Source: Bacillota bacterium (lineage in GTDB: Bacteria; Bacillota; JADQBR01). From it: a DNA stretch of 32,233 nucleotides. The translations under genes were made by a program, and so were the position numbers. Within the stretch, counting starts at the first letter, position 1, and each line of letters starts with the position of its first letter. Of the stretch, positions 4,440 to 21,058 are shown one piece after another. The stretch lies in NCBI GenBank assembly GCA_016278515.1, contig JADQBR010000058.1:1-32233 (forward strand). Direction: 5' to 3'. The notes beneath the pieces are model-generated. The model was not told where the DNA came from, made no database searches, and was given only the letters and a program-made list of their open reading frames with translations.

Positions 4440-6470
4440 TTATTTTATATTCATCGCTTTTTTGACGGTATCTTTAATCATATCTTCTTTAGGAATGAAA
4501 GGGATAGTAATATGGTCGTTTCCCTGGTTCATCCGGTTGTATTCTATACACGTGGAAACAGAGTTATCATTTCTGGCCCAAGCCCGTCTAGCCACCCCTC
4601 CCATAACATCCCAGGGTATGGCTGACTTGATTACAGTATCTATCCTCTGGCTGCCATCCAGGACCAAACCAAAACCGCCGTTAATTGCCTTGCCAATGCC
4701 CACGCCCCCACCGTTATGTAGGGCAATTAGGCTCATACCCCTGGCGGCGTTACCTGCAAAACACTGGGTAGCCATGTCAGCAGTAATATTGCTGCCATCT
4801 TTAATGTTAGCTGTTTCCCTAAAAGGCGAATCAGTACCGCCAGTATCGTGGTGGTCACGACCAATCATAACCGGACCGATTTCGCCTTTTCTAATCATTT
4901 CGTTAAACTTCAGAGCAATGTCTCTCCTTCCTAAGGCATCCTGGTATAGAATACGGGCCTGGGTACCAACAACCAATCGGTTCATTTGGGCATCTCTTAA
5001 CCAAATGTAATTATCCCTGTCCTGGTACCTTCTATTAGGATCAATACATTCCATGGCTAGACGGTCAGTCTTTATAAGGTCTTCTTCCTTGCCGCTTAAG
5101 CATACCCAGCGGAACGGGCCATAACCAAAGTCAAACAATTCCGGGCCCATTATATCTTCTACGTAAGATGGGAAGACAAAACCGTCCGTATCGTCGCTTC
5201 CATTTTTGGCAATTTCCTTAACCCCGGCGTCAAACACTGCTTTGAGAAAAGAATTGCCATAATCAAAGAAGTAGGTTCCCCGTTCCACCAGTTGCTTGAT
5301 CAGTTCGTAATGATGACTTATTGTCTGGTCAACCAATTCTTTATATTTCTTCCTATCCTTAACCAGCAGTTCCGTCCTCTCTTCAAAGGTCATACCCTGA
5401 GGGCAGTAGCCACCGTCATAGACAGCATGGCAGGAAGTCTGGTCTGACAGCAGATCCACCTTAACGTTGTTCTCCACCAAATACTCCAACAGATCAACTA
5501 CGTTTCCATGGTATGCAATGGAAATGGGTTCCTTTTTGTGTTGATACTTCTGAGCAATTTTAACTGCCTCTCCTAGATCTACGGCAACTTTACTTACCCA
5601 TCCCTGGTCATACCTAGTCTTAATACGAGATTCATCAACTTCGGCAATAATTCCAACTCCGCCGGTAATTTCAACAGCTTTTGACTGAGCACCACTCATC
5701 CCGCCTAAACCGGATGATACAAACAGCCGACCTCTCAAATCCTCGTCTTGATCAATTCCTAACTTTGACCGGCCTGCAATTAATAGGGTATTATAAGTTC
5801 CGTGGACAATACCCTGGGGCCCAATATACATCCAACCTCCAGCAGTCATCTGGCCGTAATTTGACACTCCCATTTGCATAGCACGATGCCAATCTTCCTG
5901 GTTGTCATAGAGACCCACCAGCAATCCATTAGTGATTATTACTCTTGGGGCTTCTGGACGGGATTTAAATAAACCCAATGGGTGTCCTGATTCTATTACC
6001 AGTGTCTGGTCTTGAGTCATTACCTCCAGATATTTCTTAATAAGACGATACTGCATCCAATTTTGGCAGACCTGCCCAGTTTCCCCGTAGGTTACCAATT
6101 CATACGGGTAAAGAGCTACGTCAAAGTCCAGATTGTTATCAATCATTACCTGAAATGCCTTGGCTTCAATGCAGTTTCCCTTGTAGTGGTCAATAGGCTT
6201 ACCGTAAATGCGTTCATTTGGCCGGAAACGATAGCCGTAAATCCTACCCCTTGTTACCAATTCCTCCATAAATTCCGGTGCTAACTGTTCGTGTAATTGT
6301 TCAGGCACATAACGCAATGCGTTTTTAAGAGCTATTTCCGCCTGTTCTTGGGTCAAGGTAAAGCCCCGGCCGAGAGCCCTGCGGATCCCAGGGACGAACT
6401 TGGGATATTCCGGCAGTTCACTGTCGAGTTTTATAATCATTGCATCCGCTATAACATTGTTGTTTACCAC
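4440..6470 (-). CDS. hutU: Urocanate hydratase, long (eukaryote-like) form
   Basis: About 676 aa, some 120 longer than classical bacterial urocanase and the same size class as the animal enzyme (UROC1). It holds the urocanase core: SNYGQMTAGGWMYIGPQGI, the NAD-site stretch SSGLGGMSGAQSKA near residue 255, FDYGNSF, YGPFRWVCLSG, RDHHDTGGTDSPFRET and HNGGGVGIGKAINGG near residue 595. Where classical urocanase has ARVCWL (the Pseudomonas Cys410 region), this protein has ARILYQ, so that Cys is Leu. Extra sequence is mainly N-terminal and C-terminal. It should hydrate urocanate to imidazolone propionate using tightly bound NAD+. The GTG at 6470 has AGAGGAG 8 bases upstream; the GTG at 6479 is too close. 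It lies between ftcD and fchA. Confidence 0.9.
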   Translation of the reverse strand: MVNNNVIADAMIIKLDSELPEYPKFVPGIRRALGRGFTLTQEQAEIALKNALRYVPEQLHEQLAPEFMEELVTRGRIYGYRFRPNERIYGKPIDHYKGNCIEAKAFQVMIDNNLDFDVALYPYELVTYGETGQVCQNWMQYRLIKKYLEVMTQDQTLVIESGHPLGLFKSRPEAPRVIITNGLLVGLYDNQEDWHRAMQMGVSNYGQMTAGGWMYIGPQGIVHGTYNTLLIAGRSKLGIDQDEDLRGRLFVSSGLGGMSGAQSKAVEITGGVGIIAEVDESRIKTRYDQGWVSKVAVDLGEAVKIAQKYQHKKEPISIAYHGNVVDLLEYLVENNVKVDLLSDQTSCHAVYDGGYCPQGMTFEERTELLVKDRKKYKELVDQTISHHYELIKQLVERGTYFFDYGNSFLKAVFDAGVKEIAKNGSDDTDGFVFPSYVEDIMGPELFDFGYGPFRWVCLSGKEEDLIKTDRLAMECIDPNRRYQDRDNYIWLRDAQMNRLVVGTQARILYQDALGRRDIALKFNEMIRKGEIGPVMIGRDHHDTGGTDSPFRETANIKDGSNITADMATQCFAGNAARGMSLIALHNGGGVGIGKAINGGFGLVLDGSQRIDTVIKSAIPWDVMGGVARRAWARNDNSVSTCIEYNRMNQGNDHITIPFIPKEDMIKDTVKKAMNIK

Positions 6471-6502
6471 GCTTATCACTCCTCTGTCCCTTTCTAGTTA
6501 TC

Positions 6503-10353: not shown

Positions 10354-12006
10354 TTATTCCCCTTCGTCTAAAGTTACACGTGGGTAAAATTGGGATGCTT
10401 CCTTGCGCGCCTTCTCGCATCCCGCGTCGGCATGGCGCACCACTCCCAGCCCCGGGTCATTAGTTAACACCCGGTCCAGTTTGTCGGCAGCCGTATCAGT
10501 ACCATCAGCTATTACAGTCATCCCGGAATGGATGGAATAACCAATACCAACTCCACCGCCGTGATATAAACCTGCCATGGTTGCGCCAGAAGAACAATTT
10601 AATAAGGCATTTAATACAGGCCAGTCAGCTATAGCGTCACTGCCATCAGGCATTGCTTCCGTTTCCCTGTTGGGCGAAGCTACAGAACCTGAATCCAGGT
10701 GATCCCTGGTAATTGCAATAGGAGCTGCCAACTCGCCAGTCCGAACCATCTCGTTAATTATTTTTCCAAAATGCGCCCTTTCTTTATAATTTAGCCAACA
10801 GACCCGTGCCGGAAGCCCTTGGAAGTTGACATGCTTTTGCACTTTTAAAATCCAATTGGTAAGTCTTTCTTGGTGTGCAAACTCCCTGAGAACGACTTCA
10901 TCGGTCTTAAAAATATCTGTCGGGTCTCCGGAAAGAGCAACCCATCGGAAAGGGCCGCGTCCCTCACAAAATAGGTCCCGTAACGCTGCTGGCACAAACC
11001 CCTGAATATCAAAAGCATTTGAAACACCCGCTTTAGTACCCTGTTCCCTAATATTATTGCCATAATCGAAAACTATTGACCCCTGGGCCTTAAATTCAAG
11101 CATTGCTGCTACATGTCTCTGGATAGATTTTAGTGACAACTCCTGATATTTTCCAGGTTCCGTTTTACGCTTCCGTTGCGCTTGCTCCACCGACAGACCC
11201 TCAGGGATGTAACCGCTAAGCAGATCATGGGCCGGAGTCTGATCAGTAACAATGTCAGGTATGACCCCTTTGGCTAACAGTTTGGGGTACACTTGGGCCG
11301 CATTCCCCTGCAACGCTATGGATAAAGGCCACTCTCTTTCAATACTCTCCCGAGCTAAATCCAACGCCTCATTCAAATTACGAGCCATCACATCGCAGTA
11401 GGAGTTTTCCAGGCTACGTTTTATGGTAGCACGATCCACATCGATAACAATAGTAACTCCACCGTTCATGGTAACAGCCAATGGCTGTGCCCCACCCATG
11501 CTTCCCAAACCAGAAGTTAGCACCAATTTTCCCCGTAGATCAGAACGGAAATACTGTCTGGCGACCTGAGCAAACGTTTCATAAGTCCCCTGTAAAATTC
11601 CCTGAGTACCGATAAAAGCCCAAGCGCCTGCAGTTGATTGTCCGTACGATGTCAACCCCTTGGCCTCCAGTTCCCGAAAGGTTTCCCATTGAGCCCACTT
11701 AGGAACCAACATGGCCCAAGATGTGATTACTCGCGGAGCACCCGGGAAGGTTCGAAAGACGCCAACGGGCTTACCTGAGGCAATAAGTAAAGTCTCATCA
11801 TGTTTAAGGTCCTTTAACGTTTCAATAGTAGCGTGCAATGATTGCCAATCCTTTGCAGCCTTGCCGCTGCCTCCGTAAACAATCAGTTCTTTGGGATTGC
11901 TGGCAACATCGGGGTCGATGCAGTTGAGTAGCAACCGCAGCAGTCCCTCCTGCTGCCATCCTCTACAATTTAGTTGTTTCCCCATAGGTGTTTTTATTTC
12001 CGGCAA
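10354..12006 (-). CDS. hutU: Urocanate hydratase, classical bacterial form
   Basis: About 550 aa, the standard urocanase length. It carries SYGQSTAGAWAFIGTQGI, the NAD-site stretch TSGLGSMGGAQPLA, YCDVMARNL, FDYGNN, the Cys motif LPARVCWL (Cys near residue 403, matching Cys410 of the Pseudomonas enzyme), RDHLDSGSVASPNRET and YHGGGVGIGYSIHSG. It converts urocanate to imidazolone propionate with bound NAD+. GTG (12015) and TTG (12006) are both possible starts; GGGGTGAT precedes the TTG and favours it. It is the first enzyme gene after the transporter genes and ends 3 bases before the regulator. A second urocanase of another subfamily lies 4 kb downstream in the same operon. Confidence 0.93.
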   Translation of the reverse strand: MPEIKTPMGKQLNCRGWQQEGLLRLLLNCIDPDVASNPKELIVYGGSGKAAKDWQSLHATIETLKDLKHDETLLIASGKPVGVFRTFPGAPRVITSWAMLVPKWAQWETFRELEAKGLTSYGQSTAGAWAFIGTQGILQGTYETFAQVARQYFRSDLRGKLVLTSGLGSMGGAQPLAVTMNGGVTIVIDVDRATIKRSLENSYCDVMARNLNEALDLARESIEREWPLSIALQGNAAQVYPKLLAKGVIPDIVTDQTPAHDLLSGYIPEGLSVEQAQRKRKTEPGKYQELSLKSIQRHVAAMLEFKAQGSIVFDYGNNIREQGTKAGVSNAFDIQGFVPAALRDLFCEGRGPFRWVALSGDPTDIFKTDEVVLREFAHQERLTNWILKVQKHVNFQGLPARVCWLNYKERAHFGKIINEMVRTGELAAPIAITRDHLDSGSVASPNRETEAMPDGSDAIADWPVLNALLNCSSGATMAGLYHGGGVGIGYSIHSGMTVIADGTDTAADKLDRVLTNDPGLGVVRHADAGCEKARKEASQFYPRVTLDEGE

Positions 12007-12052
12007 TATTATCACCCCAATAATTTGCTATACTGTTGTTCCAGTAACTACG

Positions 12053-17011: not shown

Positions 17012-17060
17012 AAAAAAATATTGCCTCCTATGACCAACCGGAAAAGAGGCAATATTTTTT
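17012..17060 (-). terminator. Terminator of the trk unit (bidirectional)
   Basis: AAAAAATATTGCCTC (17013-17027) and GAGGCAATATTTTTT (17046-17060) make a 15-bp stem with A and T runs on the two sides, so it can work in either direction. It lies 19 bases beyond the trkH stop codon. Confidence 0.8.
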
Positions 17061-17078: not shown

Positions 17079-18560
17079 TCAAGTTTTTGGCGAGTATAAA
17101 AAATCCTTAAACAATTTACTTATCGCTACTATGATAGCGGTAAATTCCAGCCTACCCAACCACATGCCAAGTATCTCGGCTACTTTTGCCGCTGCCGGCA
17201 TATCCGGTCCGGTGATGCCCACAGAAAGTCCAACGGTACCCAAGGCGGAAGCAAATTCAAATAAGGAATCCTTTAGGCCATAGCCGCTAAACATGAATAC
17301 CAGCACACCAACCAGGTAAGTCATGAAATATATGAAGATATAAAAGGCAACCTCCAGCAGGTGTTCCTGAGTGATAATCACTTCATCACCCTGCCTGTTG
17401 ACAGTGTGACGTATTATGGCAGTTCTGGGGAATAGTTTGGTTTTTATTGACCAGTAAATGGTCTTAAAAGCAAGGGAGACCCGGTAGAGCTTTAGACCGC
17501 CTGCAGTTGCCCCTGTTCCCCCGCCGATAATCATTAAAATAATAATTAACAGCACCGCTGTCTCGGTCCAGTGGGTAAAGGGGACAGTTTGAAATCCCGT
17601 TGTGGAGAGGGCTGAGAACGCTTGAAACAAAGCAATCCGAAATGTATGCCCTACGCCCTGATAGACATTACTTATCAATGCATAAAGGATCAAGGGTACA
17701 GTAATGCCCATGAGTATAAAGAATGCCTTTACTTCATTATCCATCAGCGCCCTTATACGTCTTTGTGATAACAAAACATAGTGGGTGGAAAAGTTGGTGG
17801 TACCTAGGATCATTAACACTAAAGTTACCGCCTCTACAGAAATACTGTTCCAATAGCCGATGCTTTCTCCTCGGGTGGAAAATCCCCCTGTGGATAAAAC
17901 AGCCATGGAATGATTGACGGCATCGAACCAGGTCATTCCTGATAGCATATATAAGACAGTACCTACTCCAAAGTAAGTCAGATAAAGTTTTATCAATATC
18001 CGACTGGTATCAATAACGTTGGGCACAAATCTATCGTTGCGCGCCTCTGCCTCATAAAGGCCGTTGGCTTCGGGGCCGATTACCGCAGAAAGCGCCAGCA
18101 CGGCAATACCAGCCCCGCCGACAAACTGCATTAAACTGCGCCAAAATAAAAACACCGGAGAGGCTTTGGACACGTCAACCATAGATAAACCGGTTGTTGT
18201 CCAGCCACTCATGGCCTCAAAAATAGCATCCAGCCATGTCAATTGGCCGGCGACTACAAAAGGCACCGCTCCCAAGATGACGGCAATGACCCAGGTAAAG
18301 CTTACCACCACCGCCCCGGATTTCATGGAAAAAGCACTCACCATGTTTTTAGTATACCTTACTATTCCATAACCCCCCATAATAGCCAGGGCTGCCGGCG
18401 CAAAAAAACTTATTAAATCTATGAAGGTACTTGTCTGGAACAGCAGTAAAGGAATGGGCAGTAGCTGCACCACGCCGATGCCCATAAGTAATTTCCCAAA
18501 ATAATATGCAATTGTTCGATATTCTTTTAGAAGTTTTTCTCTGTTAGTCAACAAAATCAC
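17079..18560 (-). CDS. trkH: Trk/Ktr potassium transporter membrane subunit
   Basis: 493 aa with four membrane-pore-membrane repeats. The four filter loops can be read in order: TTTGLSMVD (about 121), LSTGGFSTRG (about 222), LSTTGFQTVPF (about 318) and LGTVGLSVGIT (about 440), each with the conserved filter Gly, plus the GGGTGATAGGLKLYR segment near 347-360 typical of TrkH/KtrB. It conducts K+ across the plasma membrane, gated by the cytoplasmic RCK subunits encoded just upstream. The frame opens at a GTG at 18560 very close to AAGGA; TTG codons at 18554 and 18551 are better spaced alternatives. It is the last gene of the unit and follows trkA by 13 bases. Confidence 0.93.
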   Translation of the reverse strand: MILLTNREKLLKEYRTIAYYFGKLLMGIGVVQLLPIPLLLFQTSTFIDLISFFAPAALAIMGGYGIVRYTKNMVSAFSMKSGAVVVSFTWVIAVILGAVPFVVAGQLTWLDAIFEAMSGWTTTGLSMVDVSKASPVFLFWRSLMQFVGGAGIAVLALSAVIGPEANGLYEAEARNDRFVPNVIDTSRILIKLYLTYFGVGTVLYMLSGMTWFDAVNHSMAVLSTGGFSTRGESIGYWNSISVEAVTLVLMILGTTNFSTHYVLLSQRRIRALMDNEVKAFFILMGITVPLILYALISNVYQGVGHTFRIALFQAFSALSTTGFQTVPFTHWTETAVLLIIILMIIGGGTGATAGGLKLYRVSLAFKTIYWSIKTKLFPRTAIIRHTVNRQGDEVIITQEHLLEVAFYIFIYFMTYLVGVLVFMFSGYGLKDSLFEFASALGTVGLSVGITGPDMPAAAKVAEILGMWLGRLEFTAIIVAISKLFKDFLYSPKT

Positions 18561-18573
18561 ATCCTTCTTTTCC

Positions 18574-19236
18574 CTATCCCATTAGGACGGTTTCCAGGGC
18601 CTCTTGATTATCTAAGGTAGTTACCGCTATTAAGGCATCTCCGTTATGCAGTACGGTGTCTCCACGGGGGAATATCACTTGATGCTCTCGCAAAACTGTG
18701 ACCAAGACGCAGTTCTGCGGCAGTTTTGAGGATATCTGCATCACGCTTTTATTAACTACGGGGGAATCTGCTCTAATAAGTACCTCAACTATGGTCATAG
18801 AGCCCCGTTCAAAGGTCAGCAGGGTCTTAATTTCATCGGTTACCGCTTCTTTTTCAATTAGCCTGGCGATTGTGCCGGTGCTGCTCACAGTGGTCTCAAT
18901 ACCCAAACGGCGGAAAACTTCCTCGTTCTTGGGATTATTAACCCTCGCAATAGCCCGGGGAATGGAAAAGTTCTCCCTGGCCACCTGTACAGCAATCAAA
19001 TTATCTTCATCTTTACCGGTAACCACTACCAAAACCATAGCTAAATCAACTTCCGCTTCCTTCAGGGTACTTAAATTGGAGCCATCCCCCTTTATCACTA
19101 AAACCCCCAGTTCATCGGCAATTTTTTGCCCCCGGTCCGGGTCCTTTTCTATCAGAGTCACTTTATGCTTATGATCCAGCAGCGTTTTTACCAGGTAATA
19201 ACCGACCTTGCCGCCGCCGATAACGGTAATTCTCAT
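18574..19236 (-). CDS. trkA: Trk potassium uptake regulatory subunit (RCK, TrkA)
   Basis: 220 aa, one RCK unit. An N-terminal Rossmann fold (ITVIGGGKVGYYLVKTL, acidic Glu30 at the end of strand 2, GDGSN) binds NAD(H) or a nucleotide; a TrkA_C domain occupies about residues 135-220, the domain known in other RCK proteins to bind c-di-AMP. It forms the gating ring under TrkH. Its ATG overlaps the stop of the preceding small RCK gene by 4 bases. Confidence 0.92.
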   Translation of the reverse strand: MRITVIGGGKVGYYLVKTLLDHKHKVTLIEKDPDRGQKIADELGVLVIKGDGSNLSTLKEAEVDLAMVLVVVTGKDEDNLIAVQVARENFSIPRAIARVNNPKNEEVFRRLGIETTVSSTGTIARLIEKEAVTDEIKTLLTFERGSMTIVEVLIRADSPVVNKSVMQISSKLPQNCVLVTVLREHQVIFPRGDTVLHNGDALIAVTTLDNQEALETVLMG

Positions 19237-19628
19237 GATATTACCTCCATTATCTTTTGTATTTGCAGTGTCACGGGAAAGATTATTTCAATATCATGCC
19301 GAGCTAATATCAATTGGGCATGCTCGCCGCTGGCGCGGGCTATTACCAGTTCAACCGAAAAAATCTTTTTGGCTATTTGGGCGGCCATTAAATTGGCATT
19401 ATCATTTTGGGTAACTGCAATAAAGACGTCGGCTTTTGCCATGGCGGCTTTCTTTTGCACGTCCACGTCAATGGTATTGCCGTGGACCGTCCGGCCGTTA
19501 AAGCCCGGTTCCAACTGTTCAAAAGACTTATTATCCTCGTCAATAACTACGATATTATGCATGGCCTTAGCCAGAGTATTGGCCAGTTGTGACCCAACTG
19601 CACCGCAGCCGGCAATGATCACATACAC
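19233..19628 (-). CDS. Small single-domain TrkA-N (RCK_N) protein
   Basis: 131 aa, only a Rossmann RCK_N domain: YVIIAGCGAVGSQLANTL with the glycine motif, then VVIDED with acidic residues for the ribose, HGNTID and ADVFIAVTQNDNANL. There is no TrkA_C domain, unlike the next gene. The start is a GTG with AAGGAG 9 bases upstream. Two-RCK arrangements (split from the two-domain TrkA of E. coli) suggest that this protein and the longer TrkA assemble together, but as it lacks the C domain it may have a regulatory rather than gating role. It overlaps the transglutaminase-like gene by 62 bases. Confidence 0.85.
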   Translation of the reverse strand: MYVIIAGCGAVGSQLANTLAKAMHNIVVIDEDNKSFEQLEPGFNGRTVHGNTIDVDVQKKAAMAKADVFIAVTQNDNANLMAAQIAKKIFSVELVIARASGEHAQLILARHDIEIIFPVTLQIQKIMEVIS

Positions 19629-20226
19629 AAGAAATCACTCCTTTTTCAAATTCAGGTTTATGGTTATGGCTGATGAAGCAATATGGTACGTCAGAGAAAG
19701 CTGGACTAGTTTCACCGATTTCGTAATTTTTAGCTCCTTGCCAGTCTTTGGCGGGTAAAATGGCATCATTTGTCCCGTCAAAACTGGGAGCAAAGAATTT
19801 TCGCCCTAGGGCAAAGTGCCTGTCTAAAGAAGGATCTAATGTTAACCACTTATCTGTCATCAATACACGGGTGATGGCATGCCATTTTTCAGTTGCTTGT
19901 TTTGAATTAGTTAATACTTTGTGGTCTTTAATCAATTGAAAGGCAATTCCAGCGGGAACGCCCTTGGCCCTGCATAATGCGGCAAACAGGCAGGCTTTGC
20001 CCAGCGCATTGCCTCTGCCAAACACCAGAACCGCCGAAGCCCTTAGGAGACGCTGTTCCTCAGTCGGGTCATAGAGTATCTGGTCCCTGACAAAGTAGAA
20101 GAATCTTCTGACGGTACCGGGAAGGTCAGTTTCGGTTTTGGCCAGCATTTTTGCTTTCTCAGCGATTCTGGCATCAAGAGAGTTAATGTATTCGCTTGGC
20201 TCCAAAAATTTTTTTAAAGTTTGCAT
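19567..20226 (-). CDS. Transglutaminase-like protein lacking the catalytic Cys
   Basis: 219 aa from the ATG at 20226 (GAAAGG upstream). The fold is recognisable from VRDQILYD, RGNALGKACLFAALCRAKGVPAGI, KWHAITRVL and KWLTLDPSLD, which hold the His and Asp of the transglutaminase-like Cys-His-Asp triad. Counting back 15 residues from the Gly of GVPA, the catalytic Cys position is Ala (about residue 74); the nearest Cys is 5 residues on, out of register. It is therefore probably not a protease or transglutaminase but a binding or structural protein. Its 3' end overlaps the small RCK gene and it lies in the c-di-AMP-controlled unit; c-di-AMP riboswitches are known to control both K+ transport and wall-remodelling genes. 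Confidence 0.7.
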   Translation of the reverse strand: MQTLKKFLEPSEYINSLDARIAEKAKMLAKTETDLPGTVRRFFYFVRDQILYDPTEEQRLLRASAVLVFGRGNALGKACLFAALCRAKGVPAGIAFQLIKDHKVLTNSKQATEKWHAITRVLMTDKWLTLDPSLDRHFALGRKFFAPSFDGTNDAILPAKDWQGAKNYEIGETSPAFSDVPYCFISHNHKPEFEKGVISCVCDHCRLRCSWVTTGQYSG

Positions 20227-20249
20227 AAAGGTCATCCTTTCATCTGTTA

Positions 20250-20296
20250 GTAAAAAAACAAAGACCAGCCGTTTCCTTTCGGACAACAGCTGGTCT
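20250..20296 (-). terminator. Terminator after the MpsC-like gene
   Basis: AGACCAGC (20262-20269) and GCTGGTCT (20289-20296) form the stem; on the minus strand it is followed by TTTGTTTTTTT. It lies between the MpsC-like gene and the transglutaminase-like gene, so downstream trk genes need read-through or a promoter of their own. Confidence 0.75.
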
Positions 20297-20351
20297 ATCA
20301 CCGGCAAAACCATGACGTGGCCCTGCGGTCATTTCCCAGAAACTTATTCAG

Positions 20352-20723
20352 TTATTCTTTTTCATTTAATTTCTCTTCCAGGTTCTCCGCCAGTATAAAT
20401 ACTTCCAGTCTTTCACCAGTTTTAGTACTGATATCTCCATAAATGCTAATTACCTTAACACCAGTGATATCGTAAATTATTTTTTCCATCTTCGGTCTAG
20501 TCATACGCTCAAGATGATAGCGCAGATCTTTTACTAATCTACGCCCCTCATTATCATGTGCTAAGTTACTTTCCGCCGGGGTCAGCACCCCTCCCAAGCG
20601 AACGGCAATCATATCCTTAATTATATAACTTCTACCTATATTGGCACCCCTTCCGGTTTGTTCTTTCTGAATTTTAATCATAGCATTGGTTATTTTCTCT
20701 TCCATGACACCTTTGACGCTCAT
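20352..20723 (-). CDS. DUF2294 / MpsC-like protein
   Basis: 123 aa. The whole length fits the DUF2294 family (listed in Pfam as Na+-translocating membrane-potential-generating system protein MpsC): MEEKITNAMIKIQKEQTGRG at the start, GRSYIIKDMIAVRLGGVLTPAE in the middle and DITGVKVISIYGDISTKTGERLEVFIL at the end. The biochemical role is not firmly known. The ATG at 20723 follows AAAGGA by 9 bases. It is the first gene after the c-di-AMP riboswitch and terminator, so it is the most direct target of that switch. Confidence 0.8.
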   Translation of the reverse strand: MSVKGVMEEKITNAMIKIQKEQTGRGANIGRSYIIKDMIAVRLGGVLTPAESNLAHDNEGRRLVKDLRYHLERMTRPKMEKIIYDITGVKVISIYGDISTKTGERLEVFILAENLEEKLNEKE

Positions 20724-20830
20724 ATCCAACCATCCTTTGAAGAAGTATTTGCGGCGCAGCATTCTTCATGGTCGGTATTTGGCTGATTATTACACCATCC
20801 GAAATACATCCCCATAACATAATGAGAAAA

Positions 20831-20860
20831 ACAAAAAAATCATGGAGAAAAGCCATGATT
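20831..20860 (-). terminator. Riboswitch expression-platform terminator
   Basis: AATCATGG (20838-20845) and CCATGATT (20853-20860) pair around AGAAAAGC; on the minus strand the stem runs into TTTTTTTGTTTTT. It begins about 15 bases after the riboswitch aptamer and 108 bases before the next start codon. Confidence 0.8.
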
Positions 20861-20875
20861 CATAAGATATCATCT

Positions 20876-21005
20876 CCTCTCCCTACGCCTACGAGGTTAG
20901 CTGTCGGGTTCGGGTCGGAAAAGTAACCCTACCTCTGCAAAGCAGAAGATTCACCCCAAAAAATTGGGTCCCCCGTTCCAAAAAAGGATTAGGCGATAAG
21001 CTTAT
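20876..21005 (-). ncRNA. c-di-AMP riboswitch (ydaO/yuaA type)
   Basis: On the minus strand the RNA contains, in order, a segment CGCCTAATCC, GGGGGACCCA, TTTTTTGGGGTGAATC, GAGGTAGGG, GACCCGAACCCGACAGC and TAACCTCGTAGGCGTAG. This order and wording match the ydaO/yuaA aptamer consensus very closely. Members bind c-di-AMP and normally shut off expression through a downstream terminator, which is present here. Known targets are K+ importers and wall-lytic enzymes, in line with the trk genes and transglutaminase-like gene that follow. Confidence 0.93.
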
Positions 21006-21030
21006 TTTAAAATTTTGTTTCTTTCCTCTT

Positions 21031-21058
21031 ATTTTACGCCTCTTAAATGTGAAGTCAA
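21031..21058 (-). promoter_or_regulatory. Sigma-A promoter of the riboswitch transcript
   Basis: On the minus strand TTGACT (21058-21053) and TAAAAT (21036-21031) are 16 bases apart and end about 30 bases before the aptamer. It is the natural promoter for the c-di-AMP-controlled unit. Confidence 0.65.

Follow-up and report, generated by a model that had tools for sequence, protein, structure and literature searches.

Riboswitches for cyclic di-AMP (c-di-AMP; ydaO/yuaA, RF00379) are already known to precede K+ importers, as in Bacillus thuringiensis, where one controls kdpFABC (PMC6488665), and to occur in tandem with Na+-I riboswitches, with which they act as a logic gate (PMC9337991; survey in PMC9481103). 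The protein MpsC (PF10057, DUF2294) owes its name to an operon of Staphylococcus aureus, mpsABC, in which the deletion of mpsC caused no growth phenotype (PMC6689103). Here, we analyze a locus at positions 17079 to 21058 of contig JADQBR010000058.1 of a Bacillota bacterium (assembly GCA_016278515.1), in which mpsC lies between a c-di-AMP riboswitch and genes for a Trk-type K+ importer. The whole stretch of 32,233 nucleotides (nt) is referred to below as the window; it is one contig of a 4.27-Mb draft genome. With moderate confidence, we read the locus as a K+ uptake operon with two transcription checkpoints and MpsC as a regulator, and we found that the genes of one branch of the MpsC family regularly lie next to those for K+ importers, of which four unrelated kinds are represented.

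The locus resembles the kdpFABC leader of B. thuringiensis in that a terminator and genes for a K+ importer come after an aptamer of the same family, but it encodes a Trk importer, begins with mpsC and carries a second attenuator, which is conserved, ahead of the importer genes. With the Na+-I/c-di-AMP tandem it shares the combination of two RNA controls on one transcript, a c-di-AMP riboswitch and another, each with its own terminator, and the connection to osmotic balance; unlike in that tandem, the second RNA lies downstream, has no Rfam match and, in the window, stands apart from the aptamer with a gene in between. MpsC of the window and MpsC of S. aureus belong to the same Pfam family, but the gene of S. 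aureus follows mpsAB, whereas that of the window is a member of a K+-linked subfamily and has no mpsAB beside it. As in Trk/Ktr systems, TrkH is accompanied by two RCK (TrkA) proteins, but here the unit is preceded by a transglutaminase-like protein that lacks the catalytic Cys. No open-access paper linking MpsC/DUF2294 to riboswitches or K+ was found; supplements and subscription journals were outside the search, and a prior mention is possible.

Organization of the locus

All elements are on the minus strand, in the order promoter-like site, c-di-AMP aptamer, terminator 1, mpsC, terminator 2, transglutaminase-like gene, trkA, trkA and trkH. This order had been proposed in a first-pass annotation of the DNA and was confirmed by profile matches and by its preservation in another genus of the class (genome G002, locus L067). 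The aptamer (20872 to 21005) aligns over its full length with positions 1 to 134 of RF00379 and scores 120 bits (E value, 2e-28), far above the curated cut-off of 38 bits, which makes it a member of this family. It is the only copy in the genome, which encodes two proteins with a c-di-AMP cyclase (DAC) domain elsewhere. The intrinsic terminator of the riboswitch (terminator 1, 20837 to 20861), the first checkpoint, was found by a hairpin scan and is kept in G002. Upstream of the aptamer is a promoter-like site, TTGACT-N16-TAAAAT (21031 to 21058), that agrees with the consensus at 10 of 12 positions; matches of this quality are about equally common in shuffled sequence, and G002 keeps the -10 TAAAAT and the TTGA. 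A separate promoter for the trk genes had been named as an observation that would speak against a single unit. No strong one was seen in a promoter scan, although such a scan cannot exclude one.

The mpsC gene (20352 to 20723, with the likely start at 20723) encodes 123 amino acids (aa) and matches PF10057 with 111 bits against a cut-off of 23 bits (E value, 3e-32). Among the genes of the cluster, there was no open reading frame (ORF) for mpsA or mpsB, so that the family name is a poor guide to the role of MpsC here, and the locus is not a MpsABC system of the S. aureus type.

The gene order from the riboswitch to trkH, the aptamer, both terminators and a 59-nt element in front of terminator 2 are all kept in G002, and this conservation implies that the arrangement did not arise by chance. 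The identity between the two loci is 83% for the coding DNA of mpsC, 81% for the transglutaminase-like gene and 47% for the stretch upstream of the aptamer; the 59-nt element is 95% identical, a value matched by only 26 of 1498 segments of the same size, most of which fall inside the aptamer. The other genome of the class that was compared, G001, has no such riboswitch. The locus of G002 also contains a second c-di-AMP riboswitch (L067, 4842 to 4712, minus strand) after the trk operon and before a gene for the Na+/H+ antiporter NhaA (4579 to 3401); the window has neither.

One branch of MpsC accompanies K+ importers

PF10057 genes were taken from 398 genomes of the phylum, and their surroundings were searched with our own c-di-AMP riboswitch model, R2. 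A riboswitch lies directly before mpsC in seven genomes from five families (G000, G002, G283, G230, G278, G368 and G036), and G267 and G356 have riboswitch and mpsC in a back-to-back arrangement. The genes that follow the riboswitch-mpsC pair are trk (G000 and G002), kimA (G230 and G278) or kdp (G368 and G036), and in G283, mpsC stands alone behind its riboswitch. The G140 genome has mpsC-trkA-trkA-trkH with the two trkA genes fused and without a riboswitch. A tree of 103 MpsC proteins placed all K+-linked proteins of this first sample in one set of 18 rows (support, 95/79), the main part of which comprises 14 rows (support, 100/98).

A profile, A6, was built from 11 K+-linked MpsC proteins, including that of the window, and was used to search 82 and 299 further genomes. 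In the larger set, the scores were bimodal, with 34 genes at 172 to 208 bits and the remainder at 129 bits or less. Whether the locus belongs to the K+-linked subfamily defined here was judged by a score of at least 172 bits together with a riboswitch and a K+ importer nearby. It does, with 185 bits for MpsC of the window, but as one of the 11 training rows. All sets combined, the subfamily has 44 genes from 16 families, 12 of the 44 coming from a single family. A K+ importer was encoded within 5 kb of 40 of the 44 genes, compared to 0 of the 82 MpsC genes outside the subfamily (Fisher P = 1e-28), and a c-di-AMP riboswitch was present near 36 of 44, again compared to 0 of 82 (P = 4e-24); the comparison group often had shorter flanks (1.5 to 3 kb), and the P values ignore kinship. 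The importer was within 1.5 kb in 35 of the 44 cases, and in 23, mpsC directly follows a riboswitch of the same strand. The independent weight of the association rests on the 33 genes that were not used for training, and these had an importer in 31 and a riboswitch in 27 cases; counted by family, the numbers were 14 and 13 of 16. The importers are Trk, KtrB, Kdp and KimA, with KimA (PDB 6s3k; E value, 2e-118), KdpA, KdpC, KdpD and TrkH confirmed as such. The proposed connection of DUF2294/MpsC with c-di-AMP and K+ balance is thus supported well beyond the window, and the suggestion to look for DUF2294 next to ydaO riboswitches in other genomes gave a strongly positive answer for one MpsC subfamily. 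MpsC was not found in viral contigs, and a search of plasmids gave three distant MpsC proteins only.

Two other features were noticed at these loci. Downstream of mpsC in L218 (5652 to 5785) and L220 (4590 to 4722), a c-di-AMP riboswitch precedes a gene that by eye resembles glutamine synthetase, which suggests a link of c-di-AMP to nitrogen metabolism. A family of small proteins starting like M-N/K-H-T/Y-L-V-I/M-G-K-G, without a Pfam match, recurs between opuA or kdp genes and mpsC (L151, 8301 to 8786, minus strand; L224, 4488 to 4898, plus strand; and similar loci).

A covarying RNA motif

Terminators directly after mpsC were also present in several other families, and the stretches concerned contained a recurring structure. 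In a MAFFT alignment of 14 examples, 94.9% of the pair cells were paired, compared to 21 to 37% in slid controls, and 20 pair cells were changed on both sides, a number not reached in any of 500 shuffles. RNAalifold predicted the same fold unprompted. A model built from the 14 examples, R3, found 30 further places near subfamily mpsC genes with an E value of about 0.03 or better, of which 27 follow a c-di-AMP riboswitch of the same strand at a distance of at most 400 nt (77 to 245 nt), where chance would place 2%. The genes behind the matches are kdpA, opuA-like ATP-binding cassette (ABC) genes or mpsC. In 42 distinct motif sequences, aligned by fitting them to R3, 10 of 13 pairs had changes on both sides, with 84 such cells compared to 27 in shuffles (0 of 500 as high). 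The helices contain conserved internal-loop letters, and in many copies, the 3' strand of the closing helix is shared with the 5' arm of the terminator. No family of Rfam 15 matches the motif.

R3 also matched immediately behind mpsC genes of families f73 and f84 that are not part of the K+ subfamily, with weaker matches elsewhere in one locus. There was no match near 28 c-di-AMP riboswitches of other genomes, nor at a control locus without a detectable mpsC, in which a riboswitch precedes ktrB (G116). Nearly all loci searched with R3 had been chosen for holding mpsC, and absence elsewhere is not established by these searches.

Strong copies of the motif (49 to 57 bits) occur in L224 (1325 to 1381, plus strand), L225, L229, L231, L233 and L234, where the distance from the preceding c-di-AMP riboswitch is about 230 nt. 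In L224, the copy is followed by a gene for an OpuA-like ABC ATPase with CBS domains, so that K+ genes are not the only ones associated with the motif. In family f84, a ladder of short helices and symmetric internal loops, overlapped by a strong terminator, was seen directly after mpsC genes outside the K+ subfamily (L080, 3135 to 3084, minus strand; L082, L076, L079, L098 and L078).

Terminator 2 and the 59-nt element

In the window, mpsC is followed by the conserved 59-nt element (20285 to 20343) and by terminator 2 (20250 to 20296), the second checkpoint, which consists of a hairpin (20296 to 20262; -23.2 kcal/mol) and a T run to about 20250. This region folds better than all of 200 shuffles (z = -4.3). 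The hairpin noted in the first-pass annotation is thus real, and it is probably more than the brake on trk expression described there, since the terminator is conserved and preceded by a nearly invariant element, and relatives carry at this position a covarying RNA that overlaps a terminator. The closing helix of the element, CUGG/CCAG, uses the 5' arm of terminator 2, so that the two folds compete. According to calculated folding energies, the closing-helix fold is optimal until terminator 2 has been transcribed; from then on, the complete terminator fold is favored by about 10 kcal/mol, and because of this difference, the predicted default is termination unless the element is held folded.

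We suspected the element to be a known riboswitch, possibly of the Na+-I/DUF1646 class, and rejected this, since Rfam gave no match at gathering or permissive thresholds beyond miRNA-like hairpin noise. Nor is the element widespread: a model built from the two genera found only G000 and G002 among 398 genomes, and a pattern scan of 85,000 species gave 15 matches, about the chance expectation and none convincing. The relation of the element to the R3 motif is one of architecture. It lies directly downstream of mpsC, the 3' strand of its closing helix is the 5' arm of the terminator, and its closing helix is similar in kind to that of the motif (CAGG/CCUG). By place and switching architecture, it would work like the R3 motif; it is not filed as a member because its score with the model is only 6.6 bits, which is not significant. 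A copy in the Trk-linked locus of G140, with 21.4 bits, may bridge the two.

Proposed model and alternative explanations

At high c-di-AMP, that is, when K+ is replete, the aptamer would favor terminator 1 and the whole unit would be off. When c-di-AMP falls, transcription would pass terminator 1 and mpsC would be made. We infer c-di-AMP binding and the off direction, the latter from the established behavior of this riboswitch class. The 59-nt element and terminator 2 would then form a second attenuator that gates the transglutaminase-like gene, both trkA genes and trkH: the element would fold first on the emerging RNA and, if held folded, would block terminator 2, so that the importer genes are made. 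The trigger of this second checkpoint and the action of MpsC are further parts of the model that we infer. Most likely, judged from its genomic context, MpsC of the K+ subfamily is a small cytosolic regulator of a c-di-AMP/K+ regulon rather than part of a transporter, since the importers next to it are of four kinds without relation to each other and since the RNA motif also follows mpsC outside the K+ subfamily. We favor an action of MpsC on or with the RNA elements. A more specific proposal makes MpsC an antiterminator that binds RNA and acts in trans; its target would be the structured element that is found downstream of mpsC and in the leader RNAs of K+ and osmolyte importer genes. This proposal is rather unlikely; if true, it would give the widespread MpsC family its first function and define a new protein-RNA regulatory pair.

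Several observations weigh against the two-checkpoint model. The 59-nt element is known from two sister genera only, without covariation of its own, and its R3 score is insignificant, as stated above. In 12 of the 44 subfamily loci, mpsC is divergent from the riboswitch, which mostly serves a kdp operon, and in three loci (L155, L158 and L235), no importer was found nearby although the flanks were read; in a fourth, L241, the end of the contig cuts the flank. The AlphaFold model of MpsC, computed from a single sequence, is weak (predicted local distance difference test score, 69), and fold searches with it gave no significant match. Moreover, a regulated second step could be dispensable if terminator 2 simply leaks.

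The last point leads to the reading that this is an ordinary c-di-AMP riboswitch operon, with MpsC as a passenger without a role in K+ uptake and a leaky terminator 2 that only lowers the level of trk. Such riboswitches before K+ importers have precedent in kdpFABC (PMC6488665), an intergenic terminator can reduce distal expression without any regulator, and the lack of a phenotype of the S. aureus mpsC deletion (PMC6689103) would fit a passenger. A passenger would, however, not be expected to track four unrelated importers through many families, and few stretches of the locus are as well conserved as the element in front of terminator 2, the place of which is taken by a covarying RNA in relatives; we consider this reading improbable. 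A subunit or direct modulator of K+ transporters, comparable to RCK or PII-like proteins, would agree with the small, soluble nature of MpsC and with its cotranscription with the importer in many loci, but the structures of TrkAH, KtrB, KdpABC and KimA are for the most part unrelated, mpsC and the importer genes are often arranged divergently, and there is no solved relative, a search of the PDB having found none. Such a role, too, we would not expect.

More serious, although still doubtful, is the possibility that the 59-nt element and the R3 motif are a new riboswitch for a small ligand or for an ion (K+ or Na+, for example), with MpsC merely coregulated. Two features resemble those of riboswitches: the covarying helices contain conserved internal-loop letters, and the closing helix and a terminator compete with each other. 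Osmolyte transport genes of the opuA-like kind are also found behind the motif, and a tandem of Na+ and c-di-AMP riboswitches is a known logic gate (PMC9337991). However, its presence right behind mpsC genes that do not belong to the K+ subfamily suggests that the motif is tied to MpsC itself, and it was not found near 28 c-di-AMP riboswitches of other genomes.

With MpsC as a regulator, a protein whose name refers to another function probably acts in K+ balance, and MpsC/DUF2294 gains a specific, testable place in its control by c-di-AMP, in exchange for a name from an operon where its loss has no effect. A further outcome is a candidate regulatory RNA that lies in tandem with c-di-AMP riboswitches, has covariation in its favor and is not contained in Rfam 15. 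If the two-checkpoint model is true, K+ importer genes in many Bacillota-like genomes would be gated by two signals and not by one.

Downstream genes and neighboring features

The transglutaminase-like gene (19567 to 20226, minus strand) encodes 219 aa. Its likely start is 20226; the start at 20313 in the earlier ORF list is not conserved. The protein matches PF01841 (Transglut_core; E value, 1e-14), but in fold only, without the full Cys-His-Asp triad: His116 and Asp131 are kept in the alignment, and the column of the catalytic Cys holds Ala74, for which reason the protein is probably inactive as an enzyme. Alanine is also found in this column in G002 and G140. In G140, a profile search placed a related protein after trkH, which makes the transglutaminase-like protein a recurring neighbor of Trk; a search for relatives with back-translated patterns found none.

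The next two genes encode a TrkA-N (RCK) protein of 131 aa (19233 to 19628, minus strand), identified by a TrkA_N match, and a TrkA protein of 220 aa with RCK-N and RCK-C domains (18574 to 19236, minus strand; TrkA_N and TrkA_C matches). They are followed by trkH (17079 to 18560, minus strand), which encodes the pore subunit of the K+ transporter with 493 aa (TrkH Pfam match; E value, 1e-57; TrkH structure 3pjz in the PDB; E value, 2e-41). A TrkH pore together with TrkA RCK proteins makes up a Trk K+ uptake system. Just past trkH is a long inverted repeat with A/T runs (17013 to 17060) that looks like a terminator by eye and was not listed by the scan. Elsewhere in the window, two urocanate hydratase-like genes (4440 to 6479 and 10354 to 12015, minus strand) belong to an apparent histidine utilization cluster; the product of the gene at 4440 to 6479 is long (679 aa) and divergent.

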